Assembly: GCA_017458335.1 (NCBI GenBank)
Contig: JAFTFT010000009.1
Span: 1-64,000, forward strand
Length of the DNA: 64,000 bases
Direction of reading: 5' to 3'
DNA from: Oscillospiraceae bacterium
GTDB taxonomy: Bacteria > Bacillota > Clostridia > Oscillospirales > Oscillospiraceae
In this document: piece after piece, positions 8,580 to 43,488 of the stretch
Numbering within the stretch: position 1 is the stretch's first letter
Layout of the letters: each line of letters opens with the position of its first letter
Notes under the pieces: model-generated
Seen by the model: only the letters and a program-made list of their open reading frames with translations
What the model was told of the DNA's origin: nothing
Databases searched by the model: none
Made by a program: the position numbers and the translations under genes

Positions 8580-9320
8580 ATGGGACAGAAAAAAGAGGAG
8601 AAGAAAGCGGACGGACGCGTTACGGAGACGGATCCGGAAAAGAAAGAGCAGATGAAAAGGCACCGGGAACGCCTGCGCGGGCGCTATCTTGAACAGGGGC
8701 TGGACAGCCTTCAGGACTATGAGGTGCTGGAGCTTCTGCTGCAGTTTGCGATTCCCTACCGGGATACCAAGGATGAGGCCAAAAAGCTGATCGCGCATTT
8801 CGGAAGTCTTCCGGATGTGCTGGACGCAAGCTATGAAGAGATCCTGAATGCGAACGTGCCGCGGGTGAAGGAAACGGCGGCTACGCTGATCACGCTCATC
8901 AAAGGCACCGAGAACCGCTATCATAAGACGAAGGGCAGGGAGCGCAACTATATCCGAAGCACCCTGGACGCAGGGAAAACCTGCTGCTCGATGTACCGCA
9001 ATCAGGCGGACGAAAGCGTGCGCATTCTCTGCCTCAATGCGAGGGGGAAGATCGTAAAGCGCGAGGAGGTCGCGAAAGGGGATGTGAACGCGGTGCATTT
9101 CCCGGTACGGAAGATCGTGGAAACCGCGGTCCTCAGCAAGGCGGTGTCCGTGATCCTGACCCACAACCACCCCGGTGGGACCCTCTCACCCTCCCGGGAA
9201 GACCTTGACGCGACTGAAGCGGCGAAGGCAGCCCTCGGCACCATCGGCGTGCGGCTGCTGGACCACCTGATTGTGTCCGGCGAGGACTACTACTCCCTGC
9301 GCGAAAACGGATATCTCTAA
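8580..9320 (+). CDS. radC: RadC/JAB-domain protein
   Basis: 246-aa RadC family protein with N-terminal helix-hairpin-helix-like helices and a C-terminal JAMM/MPN domain. The zinc motif is HNHPGGTLSPSREDLD, with His195, His197 and Asp208 as candidate ligands. The biological role of RadC remains uncertain despite its DNA-repair name. The ATG at 8580 is preferred over GTG 8571 because GAGGTGAG sits just upstream of it. A Lys/Glu-rich tail of about 25 residues precedes the conserved part. A rho-independent terminator follows. Confidence 0.9.
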   Translation: MGQKKEEKKADGRVTETDPEKKEQMKRHRERLRGRYLEQGLDSLQDYEVLELLLQFAIPYRDTKDEAKKLIAHFGSLPDVLDASYEEILNANVPRVKETAATLITLIKGTENRYHKTKGRERNYIRSTLDAGKTCCSMYRNQADESVRILCLNARGKIVKREEVAKGDVNAVHFPVRKIVETAVLSKAVSVILTHNHPGGTLSPSREDLDATEAAKAALGTIGVRLLDHLIVSGEDYYSLRENGYL

Positions 9321-9377
9321 GTAAGACGGAAGTCCGCTTCCGCGAGATCCCGCATTCAAAACAGAAGCATGCGGAAA

Positions 9378-9430
9378 CAGGCTGCAAGTTGCATTTATGC
9401 AGATTTTATGCAATTTGCAGCCTGCTTTTT
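9378..9430 (+). terminator. Rho-independent terminator after radC
   Basis: A 17-bp stem (9378-9394 with 9408-9424, a single G-T wobble) closes a 13-nt loop and is followed by CTTTTT. It ends the glnS-radC block. Confidence 0.9.
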
Positions 9431-9463
9431 GAAAAAATACGAAAATATTGTCAGAATTCCCTA

Positions 9464-9492
9464 TTGCGCACAGCTGCGGTTCATGGTAAAGT
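9464..9492 (+). promoter_or_regulatory. Promoter of the peptide-importer operon
   Basis: -35 TTGCGC (9464-9469), 17-nt spacer, -10 TAAAGT (9487-9492). It lies 70 nt upstream of the binding-protein start and downstream of the radC terminator. Confidence 0.55.
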
Positions 9493-9562
9493 TTCCACGT
9501 AGCAGCCTGAACTGCTGCAACATACGTCAATATGCAGACAACATACAGAAAGAAGGATGACA

Positions 9563-11137
9563 ATGAAGAAGCTCATCTCCCTTGCGCTGGTCCTGGTTCT
9601 CGTGCTCGGCTTGGCGGCAGGCCTCGGCGGCAGCGCATTCGCGGCGGACAACAGGATTCTCTATCATATCCACAACTCCATGCCGTATGTCACGCTAGAT
9701 CCCAGCATCGAGTACTCCAACGGCATCATGGTGCTGCAGAACGTCTATGAGACGCTGACCCACTATGATCCGGAAACGGGAGAAGTTGTCCCCATGCTGG
9801 CGACCTCCTGGAGTTCCAACGAAGACGGTACGGTCTGGGTGTTCCAGCTCCGTGACGACGTGACCTTCCATGACGGCAGCAAGCTGACCGCCCAGCAGGT
9901 GGTCAACTCCTTCAGGCGCACCATGGACCTCGGACAGGGCGGCGCCTATATCTGGGACGCGGTTCTGGAAGAGAACGGCGGTTCCGTGGAAGCGACGGGC
10001 GAGTATGAAGTCACCATCACCTGCGGATATCCCTGCGCCATCGACCTGGTCACATCTGCGGCCTATGCGGCCTATGTCATGTCCGACAGCGTGATCGATC
10101 AGGATGTTGAGTACTTCAACCAGGGCCATGACGGCGGCTCCGGCCCCTACATGATTACCCAGGCCAACGGGGACAGCGTCGTGCTGCAGGCCTATCCGGA
10201 GTACCGCGGCGGCTGGAACGACAACCAGTATCAGTATGTCTATGTCCGCGAGGTCTCTGAATCCAGTGCGCGCCGCCAGATGCTGGAGACCGGCGAGGCG
10301 CAGATCTCCTGTGAGTTCTCCTCCACCGACCTTGAAGCGCTGGAGGCACAGCCCGACAAGGTCCACATCGTAAAGGCCGAGACCTTCAACAACGTCATCA
10401 TGTTCATCAACACCGCCGTGGAACCCGGCAGCAACGCCGACTTCCGCCGTGCTCTGGCCTACGCTTTCCCCTATGACGAGACAGTCAACCAGGTCATGAA
10501 CGGCAATGCCGAGCAGTCCGTCGGCACCGTGCCTGCCGGACTCTGGGGCCACAGCGACGAGGTGTTCCAGTACACACTGGACATGGACAAGGCAAAGGAA
10601 TATCTTGAGAAATCCGGCGTCGACACCAACGGCCTGAAGCTCACCGTCACCTATATGACCGGCGACGACACCTATGCCAGCGCCCTGCAGCTCTACCAGG
10701 TCAACCTCCGCCAGCTCGGCATCGATCTGGAGCTCAAGAGCATGGAGTGGGACCAGCAGTGGGCCCAGGCACAGAACACCGACCCGAAGAACCGTCAGGA
10801 CATGTTTCTGTTCATCTGGTGGCCGGACTATGCCGACCCGGTCAGCTGGTTCACGTCTCTGCTGCACAGCGAGGATGAGATTGTCTACAACCTCTCCTAC
10901 CTGCATGACGAGGCGCTCGACGCCCTCATCGACGAGGCGGTGGAGCTGACCGTTACAGACCGTGAAGCAGCCGAGGCGAATTACATCGAGGCTCAGAAGA
11001 TCGTCGCCGACCAGGCCTATTACCTCAACCTCTACGACCAGGTTCACACCTATGTCGTCAGCAACAGCGTGGACGGTGTCGCGGAGAATCCCGCCTATTC
11101 CTACACCATCGACTATTATCAGGTTACCGCAAAATAA
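9563..11137 (+). CDS. ABC importer substrate-binding protein, family 5 (oligopeptide/dipeptide type)
   Basis: 524-aa extracytoplasmic solute-binding protein of the DppA/OppA class. The signal peptide MKKLISLALVLVLVLGLA ends near GSAFA-AD. There is no lipobox cysteine, unusual for a monoderm binding protein. The mature part has the family-5 hallmarks YETLTHYDPETGEVVPMLA and FQLRDDVTFHDGSKLTAQQVV near its N-terminus, and a typical C-terminal lobe. ATG 9563 is preferred over ATG 9557 because AGAAGG then has normal spacing. Two permeases and a fused ATPase follow. The ligand is unknown; the downstream metabolic genes suggest a peptide or a small heterocyclic or amide compound. Confidence 0.92.
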   Translation: MKKLISLALVLVLVLGLAAGLGGSAFAADNRILYHIHNSMPYVTLDPSIEYSNGIMVLQNVYETLTHYDPETGEVVPMLATSWSSNEDGTVWVFQLRDDVTFHDGSKLTAQQVVNSFRRTMDLGQGGAYIWDAVLEENGGSVEATGEYEVTITCGYPCAIDLVTSAAYAAYVMSDSVIDQDVEYFNQGHDGGSGPYMITQANGDSVVLQAYPEYRGGWNDNQYQYVYVREVSESSARRQMLETGEAQISCEFSSTDLEALEAQPDKVHIVKAETFNNVIMFINTAVEPGSNADFRRALAYAFPYDETVNQVMNGNAEQSVGTVPAGLWGHSDEVFQYTLDMDKAKEYLEKSGVDTNGLKLTVTYMTGDDTYASALQLYQVNLRQLGIDLELKSMEWDQQWAQAQNTDPKNRQDMFLFIWWPDYADPVSWFTSLLHSEDEIVYNLSYLHDEALDALIDEAVELTVTDREAAEANYIEAQKIVADQAYYLNLYDQVHTYVVSNSVDGVAENPAYSYTIDYYQVTAK

Positions 11138-38765: not shown

Positions 38766-39128
38766 TTAATTAGTCCAATCGATCCTGTTGTAAGTATAGT
38801 AGGTTTTCTTAAAGCCATCTGTATGCCATCCATCATTATACCAGGCATATACCCATGTATCCTCTACATTTTGGATGTTGTATTTTAAAGATGTTTGTTT
38901 ATCATATTCAAAGACATCAGTTTTGGCAGTAGGAGTGAATTTATAAAAGTAAGATTTGTTAGCGCTTTTCCCTGCATCATTTAATTCTCGTCCTAAAGTG
39001 AAGTAAGTATCAGGCGGTGCAAAGACAGCCGTTGTTTGAGTTAGTTGTCCAGTCCCGCTTGTCACGATGACGTCTTCTGTGGTGAAACGAATTACTTCCA
39101 TATTTGGAGCAGCCATCTTTTTCATCAT
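38766..39128 (-). CDS. Small AT-rich protein with leader-like N-terminus, possible substrate of the adjacent cluster
   Basis: 120 aa, family not firmly recognised. The N-terminus (KKMAAPNMEVIRFTTEDVIV, then TSG) resembles the start of many short, poorly characterised proteins of gut Clostridia, where a basic stretch, Pro, and an E-D-V-I-x-T-S motif recur (from memory). The rest is Thr/Lys rich and ends in an aromatic-rich zone with about ten Trp and Tyr in the last 36 residues. No cysteine, signal peptide or membrane segment is seen. Base composition is clearly more AT-rich than neighbours, suggesting transfer. It has its own promoter and a strong ribosome site (GGAGGAAAAGC). It lies 204 nt downstream of the HprK-like gene on the same strand. 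A role as modified or exported substrate is inference. Confidence 0.7.
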   Translation of the reverse strand: MMKKMAAPNMEVIRFTTEDVIVTSGTGQLTQTTAVFAPPDTYFTLGRELNDAGKSANKSYFYKFTPTAKTDVFEYDKQTSLKYNIQNVEDTWVYAWYNDGWHTDGFKKTYYTYNRIDWTN

Positions 39129-39255: not shown

Positions 39256-39303
39256 AAAATGCCGAAAGGGCGGCGCTTCATATGAGCGCAGCCCTTTTGG
39301 CAT
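39256..39303 (-). terminator. Terminator of the export/modification operon
   Basis: 13-bp stem ATGCCGAAAGGGC/GCCCTTTTGGCAT with a partly paired 19-nt apex. On the minus strand it is followed by TTTTC. It separates the HprK-like gene from the small-protein gene. Confidence 0.7.
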
Positions 39304-39332: not shown

Positions 39333-40073
39333 TCAGGCGGAATTACGCATTCCCTTCCAGGAGACCAGAGCGGCTTCCGGCTCCATGTTGCAGAAGAGCC
39401 GATAAAAGCGGACGCAGTCTCCGAGCGATTTCACCAGAGCCATTGTCTTTTGCATGGCAAAGGAGTCATTGGAACGGTAGCTCTGCTGCAACAGAAGAGG
39501 AGCGGCTTCCCGGAAAGAAATCTCTTCGATCCTGTTCTCTGCTCCGCGGTTGAGAAAACAGATGGCACGCAGAGGAACGATCACATTCCGGTTCATGTTC
39601 TCCTTCCCGGACCAAGGGGTACCGCAGACTTCGCAGAATCCGTTCCGCAGACGCAGAAGGGGCTTGTCTCCATTTACAACATAGGCCCCCGGAATCTGTT
39701 CCAGCCAGAGGCGTGTATGGGTGGTCTTGCCGGTGCCGGAAGCAGCGGTGAAGAGAAATGCCTCGTCTCCGACCGCAACGGCCGAGCCGTGCATCAGCCA
39801 GGTGTCGTATTCCGGCATCCTTGCCGCGATCTTCCGATAAACGGCCAGCGTCTCAAGATAGGGCTCCGGGTAGAAACCGGCAGGCTTTCCTTCCAGCGCT
39901 GCCTCGCGAAGAGACTTTTCCTGCTCAAAGCGGATATCTTCCGGTGCAGTCTCTATGCGAAAGGACAGTTCCGGCGCGTCAGAGAGATAGTCCCGGCAGA
40001 GATGAAAGACCTCATCATACAGGCTGCGGATACCGATCTGCCGGCCGGCCAGGGTGATCTGAAACTCCCTCAT
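39333..40073 (-). CDS. HPr-kinase-like ATPase
   Basis: 246 aa, resembling the C-terminal kinase half of HprK without its N-terminal sensor domain. The P-loop ASGTGKTTH lies at 111-119, preceded by LMHGSAVAV (His95). NGDKPLLR (Asp136) and GTPWSGKE (151-158) follow, as in HprK-like stand-alone proteins. True HprK phosphorylates Ser46 of HPr. Short homologues found in RiPP clusters phosphorylate a precursor peptide, for example the lasso peptide paeninodin. The ATG overlaps the PqqD-like stop by 4 bp, so the two are made together. The target is unknown here; a Ser/Thr of the 120-aa protein is a possibility. Confidence 0.82.
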   Translation of the reverse strand: MREFQITLAGRQIGIRSLYDEVFHLCRDYLSDAPELSFRIETAPEDIRFEQEKSLREAALEGKPAGFYPEPYLETLAVYRKIAARMPEYDTWLMHGSAVAVGDEAFLFTAASGTGKTTHTRLWLEQIPGAYVVNGDKPLLRLRNGFCEVCGTPWSGKENMNRNVIVPLRAICFLNRGAENRIEEISFREAAPLLLQQSYRSNDSFAMQKTMALVKSLGDCVRFYRLFCNMEPEAALVSWKGMRNSA

Positions 40074-40342
40074 GGAGCGATCAGAAGGCCTTCGCGGATC
40101 AGCTGATTCAGAAATGCCGTGAGCGCTTCACCGATCTCCCGATCGTCAGAATCGGGATAACGCTCCCGGAGAATCCGATGTACCGCTTCGGGAGTAGTAT
40201 CTTCCATCAGCAGATCCAGAATCTCGGCAGAGACCTCGTTCATCCGAAGCATGCCGTTGAAGCTCCCCGCATTTTCACCGACCGGAACGGCCATGTATTC
40301 GCCATCCATCTCCATGACCGAAAATTCGTATCGTAATTTCAT
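40070..40342 (-). CDS. PqqD-like RRE-fold protein
   Basis: 90 aa with the PqqD pattern: N-terminal strands (YEFSVMEMDGEYMAVPV), FNGMLRMNEVSAEILDLLME, then helices ending in FLNQLIREGLLIAP. PqqD folds bind leader peptides in PQQ, lasso and other RiPP pathways and present them to modifying enzymes. As a stand-alone protein next to a kinase and an exporter, it suggests that a leader-bearing substrate exists. It lies 27 nt after the acyltransferase-like gene and overlaps the kinase start. Confidence 0.85.
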   Translation of the reverse strand: MKLRYEFSVMEMDGEYMAVPVGENAGSFNGMLRMNEVSAEILDLLMEDTTPEAVHRILRERYPDSDDREIGEALTAFLNQLIREGLLIAP

Positions 40343-40369
40343 CGTTCAGACCTCACTTTACCAGAAGAA

Positions 40370-41413
40370 TCAAAGAATATCCACAATGCGGCGAAAGCCG
40401 TATTCGCAGACTCCCACCAGAAGTGCAGGAAGCAGGGTAAAGACGAACACCGCGATTCCGCCGAAGCTCAGGACAACGGAGGCAACTTTCTCTCCAAAGA
40501 CTGAAAGCAGCAAGGGAAGAAAGAATCCCACCGGCTGGTGGAAGGCATAAATCCAGCGGGAGAGGCAGCGCGCATGCCGGAACATGCCGCCCAGCTCCTC
40601 CTCAGGATGGACCAGGGCAATGCAGCAGAGGGCAAAGGCCGTGACACCATATCCGATGGTATGGCCGACATAGACCAGCTTTCCGGTATAGGAGAGAAGC
40701 AGAATTTCCACAAGCCCGAGAATCATACCAAGGATCAGAAGTCCGCCCCAGATCAGGGGATTGGTCAGAAAGAGACGCTCGGAACGCCGGCGGAGCAGAG
40801 CACCCAGAAGCAGATAGGGAAGTGCCCGGGTGACGGCATTGGCCGGAATATAGGTATAACCGAGAACGATCAGATGGATCAGACCGGCGAATTCCCCGGA
40901 GAACAGCATCAGGATCGTCGTAACGAGGAAAAGCGGAAGAATGAGAACCGGAAGGTGCCCTCTCAGATCCAGCAGCCGGAGAAGTACCCAGGCATAAAAC
41001 AAAGACTGAATAAACCAGAGACACTCTCCGGTCTGGAAAGGCCAGACACAGAGAACAACAAAGTTGAAGAGTACGCGTTTTCTCAGGACGCTTCCGACCC
41101 AGTCGACGCCCTGCAGGGTAAAGATCAAGGCATTCAGACCAAGATAGAAAAGCGTAAGAACAAGAAAAAAGATTCCTGTGGAACGGATTGCCCGTTGAAG
41201 CTTTTTACGGCGCTCTTCCTCCTCTTCCGTCAGGACAAAAAAGCCGCAGAGAATATAGAAGGCGAGGGGAGCCGCACGGCAGAGATCCCGTACAGCGCTC
41301 CCGACTGTTCCCGGGAGACCGAAGGACAGCACGCAGACCGCGGGCATCAGAAGGAGTTTCAAGCGGTCTGCGCCATAGCCGTAAGAGACCGTGTTATTCA
41401 TAATACCAGTCAT
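40370..41413 (-). CDS. Acyltransferase-3-like multipass membrane protein
   Basis: 347 aa with about ten predicted membrane helices. ECLWFIQSLFYAWVLLRLL and the later WIYAFHQPVGFFLPLLLSVF resemble acyltransferase-3 proteins, though the N-terminal R-x10-H catalytic pattern is not clear (YGYGADRLKLLLMPAVCVL occupies that place). It could acylate a lipid or exported product, or be a catalytically dead relative. ATG 41413 overlaps the exporter stop (ATGA); an in-frame extension upstream to 41425 lies within the exporter gene. Confidence 0.72.
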   Translation of the reverse strand: MTGIMNNTVSYGYGADRLKLLLMPAVCVLSFGLPGTVGSAVRDLCRAAPLAFYILCGFFVLTEEEEERRKKLQRAIRSTGIFFLVLTLFYLGLNALIFTLQGVDWVGSVLRKRVLFNFVVLCVWPFQTGECLWFIQSLFYAWVLLRLLDLRGHLPVLILPLFLVTTILMLFSGEFAGLIHLIVLGYTYIPANAVTRALPYLLLGALLRRRSERLFLTNPLIWGGLLILGMILGLVEILLLSYTGKLVYVGHTIGYGVTAFALCCIALVHPEEELGGMFRHARCLSRWIYAFHQPVGFFLPLLLSVFGEKVASVVLSFGGIAVFVFTLLPALLVGVCEYGFRRIVDIL

Positions 41414-43416
41414 AGCGTCCACCAATCACTTTCGTTTTCCGGCCCAGGCAGCTCCTGCGGAGCGGGAATGACCTGAGCGGTCTGTTTCCGAAGATATGCT
41501 TCCTGTTCCATGGCTCGATTTCGCAGAGCGTCCATTGCCGGCTCGCTGTCGTCAGAGCGGGGAATCAGAGCGTCCGCTTCGGACGGAGCCGCTTCTTCGA
41601 TCCTGCCGTCGTGAATCCGGTAGACCCGTTGGCAGAGCTTCAGAGCACCGGGCCGGTGTGTGGAAATGATGATCGCTTTATTTGGATGGAAGCGGATGAT
41701 ATTGCGGAGCACAGCTTCCTCCGTTTCCGTATCCAGGGCACTGGTGGCTTCATCGAGCAGGAGAATCGGCGCGTCGCGCAGCAGGGCGCGCGCAATCGCG
41801 AGCCGCTGGGCCTGCCCTTCCGAGATGCCCCGTGCGCGCTCCCCAAGCGCCGAGTCAATCCCATCCGGCAGTACCGAGACAAAGTCCCAGGCACAGGCGG
41901 TCCGGAGCGCGGACACGATCTCCTCGTCGGTGATATCTTCCCGGACATTGCGCATATTTTCCGCTATGGTACCGGAGAGAATGGTGTTCCCCTGCGGTAC
42001 ATAGGCAAAAAAGCGCCGCAGGTCCGCGTTCACCGGCACAGCCTGCCCGTCGCAGCCGGAGAGCGTGACGCTGCCCTCCTGAGGACGGAGCATCCCCAGC
42101 ATCAGGCGCATGAAGGTCGTTTTCCCGCCGCCGGAAGGGGAGAGGACGGCAACGATTTCCCCCGGGCCGACGGAGAGGTTCAGATCCTGATAGATTTCCT
42201 TTTCTTCGGAATAGGCGAAGCGCACATGATCGAGCTTTACGGTGAGACCGTCGTCGGCGATGCGGCGCATCATCTCGTAGCTTTGCGCATCATGCTCTTC
42301 CCGCGGCAGATCCACGAGCTCCCGGATGCGATGAGCGGAGACGGCGGAGTTCAGCATGCCGGGGATGGTCCCGATGAGGCTGTTGAAGCGCCCGCTGAGA
42401 CTACCGCGCTGCTGAAGAAAGAAGGTCATGTCACCGTAGAGAATCTGACCGTTCCAGAGCCGGAACAGACAGTAGCCGAAAGCGGCCATGGAGACGGCGG
42501 TGGAAACCAGCGTCAGAAGAATGCGGGAGCGGATCTCAAAGCGGTTATACTCGAGGCTGTAATCCTTGTAGCGTTGCTGCCAGGAGCGGAGCTTTCCGGA
42601 ATAAGTACCGAAAACACCGAAGGACTTGATCATGTCAAGGTTGAAAAAGGTCTCAACCTCAAAGGACATCATGCCGGAATTGAGCTCCAGAATACGCTTT
42701 CGGTATTCCTTCATACGGCGCATGATCCAACGGCTCATCACCAGCAGAAAGGGCGCGGACAGAATGGCGATCCAGGCCATGACGGAGTCCAGGCGGAAGA
42801 GCACCACAAAGGTGACGACGAAGGTATAGATGTTGATGATGAGATTCGGGATCCAGTTGATGGCATTGGAGGCAATGGTACCCACATCGCCGTTGAAGCG
42901 GTTCAGCAGGTCTCCGCTGGGGTACCGGCTGAGTTCCTCCCAGCGGGCGTCGATGATCCGGTCGAAGATCTCCGCCTGGATGTCATTGCCCACATAGATG
43001 GAAATCCGCGTAAAAATCCGACTGTTCAGACTTGAAAGCAGAAGCGAGAAAGCCGTCATTCCCAGCATGGCGCCCAGCAGCAGCCAGAGCTTGTCACGCT
43101 GCTGGCCAACGACGATGTTGATGAGCGTGCGGCTCAGCCAGGCCGAGCCCAGCGAGAGGGTGGAACCGAAAATCCCCACCAAAGTGTAAAACACAATGAT
43201 CCACTTGTACTTCCGGGAGAAAGAAAAGATCCACTTCCAGTCGTCAAAAAACTCGGACAAGGTACCGTCGTCAATATGACGGAGAATGGCCTGCAGGGCG
43301 TCGCTGTGAAACAGGCGATTCAGCCCGGTATAGACCTCTGCTTCTTCAGCTTCCGTGGCACAAGACCGTTTACGGGAGTCGGAAGTATGATGTTGTCTCT
43401 CCTGCCCATTCATCAT
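41410..43416 (-). CDS. ABC exporter with fused membrane and ATPase domains
   Basis: 668 aa, type IV (MsbA-like) exporter half-transporter. An N-terminal cytoplasmic extension (about 1-70) precedes six membrane helices (about 72-350). The ATPase (about 370-600) has Walker A SPSGGGKTT, Q-loop YVPQGN, signature ISEGQ, Walker B ILLLDEATSALD and switch ISTHR. The first Walker A glycine is Ser and the signature is the variant seen in peptide and lasso exporters. No C39 peptidase domain is present, so leader removal, if any, needs another enzyme. A roughly 75-residue charged tail ends the protein. It is first in the four-gene operon. A 5-codon upstream frame (MDDAI) ends on the start ATG. Confidence 0.88.
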   Translation of the reverse strand: MMNGQERQHHTSDSRKRSCATEAEEAEVYTGLNRLFHSDALQAILRHIDDGTLSEFFDDWKWIFSFSRKYKWIIVFYTLVGIFGSTLSLGSAWLSRTLINIVVGQQRDKLWLLLGAMLGMTAFSLLLSSLNSRIFTRISIYVGNDIQAEIFDRIIDARWEELSRYPSGDLLNRFNGDVGTIASNAINWIPNLIINIYTFVVTFVVLFRLDSVMAWIAILSAPFLLVMSRWIMRRMKEYRKRILELNSGMMSFEVETFFNLDMIKSFGVFGTYSGKLRSWQQRYKDYSLEYNRFEIRSRILLTLVSTAVSMAAFGYCLFRLWNGQILYGDMTFFLQQRGSLSGRFNSLIGTIPGMLNSAVSAHRIRELVDLPREEHDAQSYEMMRRIADDGLTVKLDHVRFAYSEEKEIYQDLNLSVGPGEIVAVLSPSGGGKTTFMRLMLGMLRPQEGSVTLSGCDGQAVPVNADLRRFFAYVPQGNTILSGTIAENMRNVREDITDEEIVSALRTACAWDFVSVLPDGIDSALGERARGISEGQAQRLAIARALLRDAPILLLDEATSALDTETEEAVLRNIIRFHPNKAIIISTHRPGALKLCQRVYRIHDGRIEEAAPSEADALIPRSDDSEPAMDALRNRAMEQEAYLRKQTAQVIPAPQELPGPENESDWWTL

Positions 43417-43460
43417 ATTGCATCGTCCATACCTAAATAGAACTGAGTGTACCTGTCTGT

Positions 43461-43488
43461 ATTATAAGCCGATGTTTTTCTGCGTCAA
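43461..43488 (-). promoter_or_regulatory. Promoter of the export/modification operon
   Basis: On the minus strand, -35 TTGACG (43483-43488), 16-nt spacer, perfect -10 TATAAT (43461-43466), about 40 nt upstream of the exporter ATG. Confidence 0.8.

Follow-up and report, generated by a model that had tools for sequence, protein, structure and literature searches.

Organization of the locus

The window analyzed here (64,000 nucleotides; positions 1 to 64,000 of contig JAFTFT010000009.1 of an Oscillospiraceae bacterium, GenBank assembly GCA_017458335.1, a gut-type Clostridia genome) carries on its minus strand an operon of four genes, encoding an ATP-binding cassette (ABC) exporter, a membrane protein resembling AT3 acyltransferases (the AT3-like protein), a PqqD-type protein, and an HprK-like kinase, and a small open reading frame (ORF) that is the putative substrate of the system. 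The operon probably represents a clostridial variant of the Linear Polyphosphorylated Peptide (LPP) pathway, in which small proteins would be bound through their leaders, phosphorylated, and exported, with an AT3-fold protein repurposed as a partner. The features of the locus, in the direction of transcription, are as follows.

43461..43488, minus strand: promoter-like site of the operon, TTGACG-16-TATAAT (11 of 12 consensus bases)
41410..43416, minus strand: MsbA-like ABC exporter gene (Pfam PF00664 and PF00005)
40370..41413, minus strand: AT3-like membrane protein gene (PF01757 below the cut-off; AlphaFold2; Foldseek)
40070..40342, minus strand: gene for a stand-alone PqqD-type recognition element (RRE) of ribosomally synthesized and posttranslationally modified peptides (PF05402, 46.2 bits)
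39333..40073, minus strand: HprK-like P-loop kinase gene (Walker A conservation among relatives)
39259..39303, minus strand: terminator-like hairpin 3' of the kinase gene (-27.9 kcal/mol, z = -5.72, followed by UUUUC)
38766..39128, minus strand: putative substrate ORF (match at E = 4.2e-13 to a leader profile that includes this sequence; homologues of the leader ORF adjoining the operon in other genomes)

The stop codon of the exporter gene overlaps the ATG of the AT3-like gene (position 41413) as ATGA, the PqqD and kinase genes are joined in the same way, and the AT3-like and PqqD genes are separated by 27 nucleotides. The ATG at 41413 is most likely the start of the AT3-like gene, for which a mechanical ORF list has a TTG at 41425. 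Seven promoter-like sites were found between 38600 and 43700, versus 3.5 (standard deviation, 1.7) in shuffled sequences, the site at 43488-43461 being the best of them. None of 200 shuffles was as stable as the hairpin at 39303-39259, which was not among the terminators listed by a simple scan of the region. All the elements of the layout described in a first-pass annotation of this DNA, namely four genes, two ATGA overlaps, a 27-nucleotide junction, a promoter-like site, and a hairpin at the end, were present.

The exporter consists of a fused permease and ATPase (ABC_membrane and ABC_tran), and a Pfam search found no peptidase domain in it, as had been claimed. Its best NCBIfam model is MsbA_lipidA (E = 1.5e-72, yet far below the cut-off of that model). 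The PqqD-type protein scores well above the PF05402 cut-off of 23.4 bits. In the HprK-like protein, the Walker A motif SGxGKxTH and a DKP motif are invariant across 14 aligned relatives, and no HPr-sensing domain is recognizable. PHROGs and PADLOC gave no useful matches.

Recurrence of the gene set in related genomes

Kinase-like proteins were matched in 26 of 60 related genomes, and among 20 loci around such hits, a PqqD gene was present in 18 and a signal-peptidase-like gene in 17. Close orthologues of the exporter (E <= 1e-80) occur in 19 of 102 genomes of the genus, including the source genome; they lie alongside an AT3-like gene in three genomes (the source genome, G389, and G382) and alongside radical-SAM genes in three (G012, G033, and G376), while some of the remainder are near NTP-transferase and capsule-type genes. 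Fewer genomes encode the AT3-like protein, which was matched in 5 of 300 genomes of the family, two of these matches being barely significant, and in 4 of 394 genomes of the order. A scan of the GTDB collection gave 20 AT3-like loci, which, judging by record titles, are mostly in rumen, deer, goat, or horse-gut metagenome genomes.

Across 22 related loci and the window, a leader ORF (see below) was found at 19 of 23, a PqqD gene at 18, the ABC gene at 17, the kinase and signal-peptidase-like genes at 13 each, and an NTP-transferase gene at 6; outside the window, the leader ORF adjoins the operon at 18 of 22 loci. For this table, L131, an AT3 relative with no cassette, was removed from 23 rows before the window was added, and L086, L087, and L103, which are the same contigs as L116, L125, and L118, were counted once. 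L104 of genome G295 was also excluded; in its broken region (9136-10365), the exporter and the AT3-like protein form one frame with a gap in both, which is either a deletion or an assembly fault. Many of the 23 loci are on contigs that end nearby, and the long contigs of L120, L121, L123, and L126 are without parts of the set, so the gene set is not fixed. Its recurrence in other genomes places the four-gene grouping beyond chance. The first-pass annotation had proposed to look for a conserved set and a conserved small ORF, and the neighborhoods contain a recurrent set with a leader-bearing small ORF. The signal-peptidase-like gene, which is absent from the operon in the window, had been missed.

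At three loci in sister genomes (L050, 6855-12641; L089, 1647-8725; and L088, 3278-10618), an exporter of the same lineage is accompanied by genes for radical SAM/SPASM enzymes, PqqD, and HprK-like proteins. The small ORFs at these loci have leaders of the form FxxNEYxxxC or similar, and the loci represent a distinct, radical-SAM type of cassette. The SynChlorMet cassette (ScmC and ScmE/F; NCBIfam) likewise has HprK-like and PqqD-like proteins, but the matches to ScmC, ScmE, and ScmF are all far below curated cut-offs, and the window operon has no radical SAM gene. At L092 (6835-14239), HprK-like, PqqD-like, and NTP_transf_5 genes lie upstream of an exporter orthologue, and genes for a capsule-type phosphatase and chain length lie downstream of it.

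A shared leader with variable cores

The product of the ORF at 38766-39128 has 120 residues and is composed of a 24-residue leader (39128-39057) and a 96-residue core free of cysteine. Twenty-one small ORFs share a leader of 19 to 24 residues with the consensus PExEVVRFxxEDVIATS, followed by cores of 64 to 119 residues that contain 12% Gly, 10% Tyr, and 0.1% Cys. Mean identity among the 21 sequences is 0.56 in the leader versus 0.18 in the core. The earlier suggestion that the 38766-39128 product is the likely substrate is borne out by homologous leader ORFs that adjoin the operon in other genomes, and a leader shared across small ORFs agrees with the leader recognition that the PqqD fold had been taken to imply.

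At E <= 0.1, the leader profile was matched in 12 of 26 genomes, namely, 12 of the 16 that bear the cassette and none of the 10 that are kinase free. At E <= 1e-5, it was matched in 9 of the 16 cassette-bearing genomes, 7 of which had contributed their own sequence to the profile and 2 of which (G004 and G036) had not; the AT3-like-bearing genome G295 had no match. Beyond the members of the profile, leader ORFs were found in G382 (four), G389 (one), G286 (one), and G027 (one). Of these, the ones in G382, G389, and G286 lie on other contigs. The G286 ORF encodes 45 residues close to a contig end, and those on contigs C102 of G382 and C38 of G389 have unrelated genes on either side.

Among 31 selected leaders, the first position of the motif that corresponds to YxxP in LPP is M, I, or L in all 27 from AT3-like-bearing genomes and Y in all 4 from G027, a genome that lacks the AT3-like gene. 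The list was chosen by hand and omits weaker profile hits, such as those on G648 C151 and G004 C36 (both Tyr) and in G021, so that its invariances are partly due to selection; in some of the 31, the M of the motif doubles as the start codon. This division should be read as a tendency, since G648 has an AT3-like gene as well as an omitted Tyr leader. In G027, short ORFs at L062 (1474-1824), L065 (1465-1614), and L066 (1453-1575) have YxxP leaders whose last residues are DVIITS or DLIITS, followed by short, Cys-containing cores, and each ORF adjoins a gene for a protein of about 480 residues.

The G+C content of the substrate ORF is 37.5%, compared with 53 to 58% across the operon. Substrate ORFs are also lower in G+C than the adjoining cassette genes in 14 of 20 relatives (mean difference, -5.8 points; Wilcoxon p = 0.007), most markedly in and near the lineage of the window.

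Relationship to the LPP pathway

The LPP pathway (lppAKBSDN) was published in May 2026 (PMC13381572). According to the main text of that paper, it comprises an SpI-like peptidase, an RRE, an HprK-like kinase, an NTP-transferase, and an MsbA-like transporter that handle precursors with YxxP leaders, and its clusters are frequently located within capsule loci. In gene deletion experiments and assays, LppK was found to phosphorylate Ser3 of the core. The peptidase cleaves after T-1 and requires the RRE, LppB binds the YxxP motif of the leader, and Tyr versus Trp at the first motif position sets the choice of RRE between the LPP and lasso pathways (PMC13381572). The core idea of a kinase, a PqqD-type protein, a peptidase, an NTP-transferase, and an MsbA-like exporter working together is already published, because the same gene set constitutes LPP, and the first-pass description of the operon as undescribed no longer holds for that set. 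On the AT3-like version, no paper was found in the open-access literature, with most subscription journals outside the search; the words acyl, Clostridi, and rumen are absent from the main text of the LPP paper.

The window operon shares with LPP a stand-alone RRE, an MsbA-like exporter, and, less certainly, an HprK-like kinase. Most of its relatives also share a SipW-type peptidase, and some share an NTP-transferase. In both systems, the precursors combine a constant N terminus with a variable C terminus, and the small ORFs found here fall within the published 35 to 200 residues. The leaders differ, with YxxP and FETxxS in LPP versus [M/I/L]xxP and a terminal EDVIATS here, and LPP is described from Bacilli, whereas this variant is in Clostridia. 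In addition, three genomes with the variant carry further substrate genes on contigs apart from the operon, and the variant includes an extra AT3-like protein. The operon is probably a variant of LPP by its working and not a strict member, because a peptidase gene, an NTP-transferase gene, and a YxxP motif were not found in it.

The AT3-like membrane protein

The AT3-like protein scored 29.4 to 29.6 bits against Acyl_transf_3 (PF01757), slightly below the cut-off of 31. Its AlphaFold2 model, built with 21 sequences, had a predicted local distance difference test score (pLDDT) of 89.8 and a predicted template modeling score of 0.89. The five top Foldseek matches of the model were HGSNAT chains (8vli, 8vkj, 8vlu twice, and 8jkv), with probabilities of 0.75 to 0.99 and E values of 0.07 to 0.48; no match reached E <= 0.001, and sequence searches against solved structures found no relative. 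The Lys or Arg at the Arg position of transmembrane helix 1 (TMH1) (23/23 sequences that cover it), the TMH2 FxxxxG motif and TMH9 Tyr (24/24 each), and, less certainly, the predicted ten-helix-type fold are shared with AT3/TmAT acyltransferases (PF01757; OafB, OatA, and HGSNAT).

The protein departs from that family in the R-x10-H motif of TMH1, which is described as absolutely conserved and essential in AT3 proteins (PMC9833829, PMC12423673). The His is absent from all 23 sequences that cover it, being replaced by Leu (10), Ser (9), Ile (2), Cys (1), or Ala (1). The window protein has Lys23 and Ser34 (TTG numbering) at the two positions and thus carries neither the His nor the Asn reported there in HGSNAT (PMC12423673). 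L131, the AT3 relative outside the cassette and a single control, retains K-x10-H. Another histidine, His255 (TTG numbering), is present in 20 of 24 sequences. At L112 (8291-11460), two AT3-like genes lie in tandem, and a separate leader ORF follows each of them.

Proposed mechanism

Gene content, the shared leader, and the loss of the His were read from sequence, and the steps below are modeled on LPP biochemistry and on covariation. The PqqD-type protein would bind the 120-residue product at its N-terminal leader, in which M5-A-A-P8 stands in the register of the YxxP bound by LppB. The target of the HprK-like kinase would be a serine where leader and core meet, and the invariant Ser of (A/V)TS (here Ser24) is the likeliest candidate. 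When the leaders are anchored on the Pro, this Ser falls within one residue of LPP core Ser3, and by that analogy it may be the phospho-acceptor rather than a cleavage site; cleavage after it by the -3/-1 rule, which was considered as an alternative, may occur instead. A SipW/Sec11-like peptidase, encoded within the cluster in most relatives and presumably supplied in trans here, would remove the leader, and the MsbA-like transporter would export the core of about 100 residues. The AT3-fold protein, which retains several acyl-CoA-site residues but not the catalytic His, would act with the substrate, either in a modification of altered chemistry or as a noncatalytic partner. Of the phosphorylation and/or acylation proposed at first for an exported substrate, phosphorylation is probably correct by analogy with LPP, but acylation is doubtful because the His is gone in 23 of 23 relatives.

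Supply of the peptidase in trans is possible because the source genome encodes a homologue elsewhere (E = 2.2e-21) next to a second PqqD gene. This locus, on contig C28 (L133, 8668-10868), contains the signal-peptidase-like gene, the PqqD gene, a glycosyltransferase gene, and a truncated kinase gene in the form of an 85-residue fragment of the kinase N terminus. The peptidase family profile matches Sec11 (E = 0.0023), and Ser and His are invariant in 14 of 14 relatives; none of these proteins had a Pfam match above the cut-off.

Several observations weigh against an LPP-type pathway. The window operon has no SpI/SipW-like peptidase gene, unlike 13 of 22 relatives, and no NTP-transferase gene (present in 6 of 22), for which the rest of the genome was not searched. 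Its leader motif is MAAP, not YxxP. The substrate gene, although it has its own ribosome-binding site (GGAGG, rated good), is outside the transcript unit of the operon because it lies beyond the hairpin, and the AlphaFold2 model of its product was uninformative (pLDDT 56). The PqqD family profile matches the lasso RREs TfuB1 (E = 8.7e-5), TbiB1, and PbaB1 (E = 5.8e-4) better than LppB (9x8z; weak, E = 0.019). For the kinase, Pfam gave no HPr-kinase match in the window protein (PEPCK only, E = 0.054), and NCBIfam support is almost nil, since ScmC (TIGR04249) was matched by 3 of 14 proteins and HprK_rel_A by 1 of 14, with the window protein matching neither. Sequence searches against solved structures likewise found no relative of the kinase. 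Similarity of the substrate core follows that of the AT3-like protein (r = 0.42, p = 0.001 given PqqD at 17 loci; r = 0.33, p = 0.013 given ABC at 15 loci), and no association with PqqD or ABC is left over, but similarity of the leader follows it more strongly (r = 0.55, p = 0.0005 given PqqD; r = 0.45 given ABC). As covariation is no weaker for the leader than for the core, it may mean mere co-inheritance. Since it extends over leader and core, the AT3-like protein probably travels or works with the substrate; it is tied to the substrate by this sequence signal, which does not imply action on the core.

Alternative explanations

Two other roles can be considered for the AT3-like protein. It may, although this is doubtful, be a membrane protein that confers immunity to an antagonistic secreted peptide or escorts it, with the loss of the His reflecting a noncatalytic role. 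The His is lost throughout the cassette proteins, whereas the noncassette relative L131 keeps K-x10-H; the tandem AT3-like/substrate pairs at L112 and the covariation with the substrate fit as well, and a membrane escort protein of another family is known for TMcin (PMC13252029). However, many acyl-CoA-site residues are still conserved, and each of seven AT3-like-bearing genomes has one AT3-like copy, versus five leader ORFs on five contigs in G382 and two in G389 (the genomes being incomplete), so extra substrates have no partner of their own. Strict one-to-one immunity pairing is weakened by G382 in particular. It is unlikely that the protein is a genuine acyltransferase acting on the exported core by O-acylation, a role in which another residue, such as His255 (TTG numbering), would stand in for the TMH1 His. 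The confidently predicted fold, its closest solved folds in HGSNAT, the retained TMH1 Lys/Arg, TMH2 FxxxxG, and TMH9 Tyr, and the Asn of HGSNAT itself at the His position (PMC12423673) speak for it, but a residue called absolutely conserved and essential (PMC9833829) is here L, S, I, C, or A, and His255 is absent from 4 of 24 sequences.

The operon as a whole could also be a cell-surface polysaccharide export or decoration operon with the small ORF as a bystander, given that exporter orthologues adjoin capsule-type genes in several genomes of the genus (e.g., L092) and that LPP clusters are often in capsule loci (PMC13381572); capsule genes are absent from the flanks of this operon and the leader ORF is kept beside it at 18 of 22 other loci, which makes this very improbable. 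A disguised lasso-peptide cluster whose cyclase and B2 protease are encoded at other loci of the genome is largely refuted and has next to no probability left. Paeninodin-like lasso clusters do share an RRE, an HprK-like kinase, an ABC exporter, and sometimes an NTP-transferase, rumen lasso clusters are reported with HprK, PqqD, and NTP-transferase (PMC7533575), and lasso RREs are the nearest matches of the PqqD profile. They differ in that the cores here, at about 100 residues, are unlike lasso cores and neither a B2 protease nor a linked cyclase is present. The source genome (about 84% complete) has no match to PF13471, the B2 protease family, which agrees with the earlier claim that the transglutaminase-like protease is absent; the accompanying claim for the cyclase is true of the operon but not of the genome, where asparagine-synthetase-like genes (PF00733) occur on contigs C35 and C25 only. 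Among 20 genomes searched, PF13471 was above the cut-off in one, G044, which bears no AT3-like gene, and below it in G295. Lasso clusters at the kinase-hit loci were rejected too, as the gene beside PqqD is signal-peptidase-like and not B2.

Implications

A broader form of the LPP-type reading, which we advance tentatively and hold to be less than an even chance, is that Clostridia have their own LPP branch, in which one RRE-kinase-exporter machine with an [M/I/L]xxP code matures and secretes dispersed phosphoproteins of about 100 residues and an AT3-fold protein without the canonical His has a new, substrate-dedicated role in chemistry or recognition. If this is true, the phosphopeptide pathway described in 2026 reaches the Clostridia, where record titles assign many of the relatives to rumen genomes, and the leader code published for LPP and lasso pathways, in which Tyr or Trp keeps the two apart, gains a third letter. 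The long substrates would be encoded partly away from their machinery, where ordinary cluster mining would overlook them, and an AT3-fold protein conserved beside these genes without its catalytic His would open roles other than classical acyl transfer to testing.

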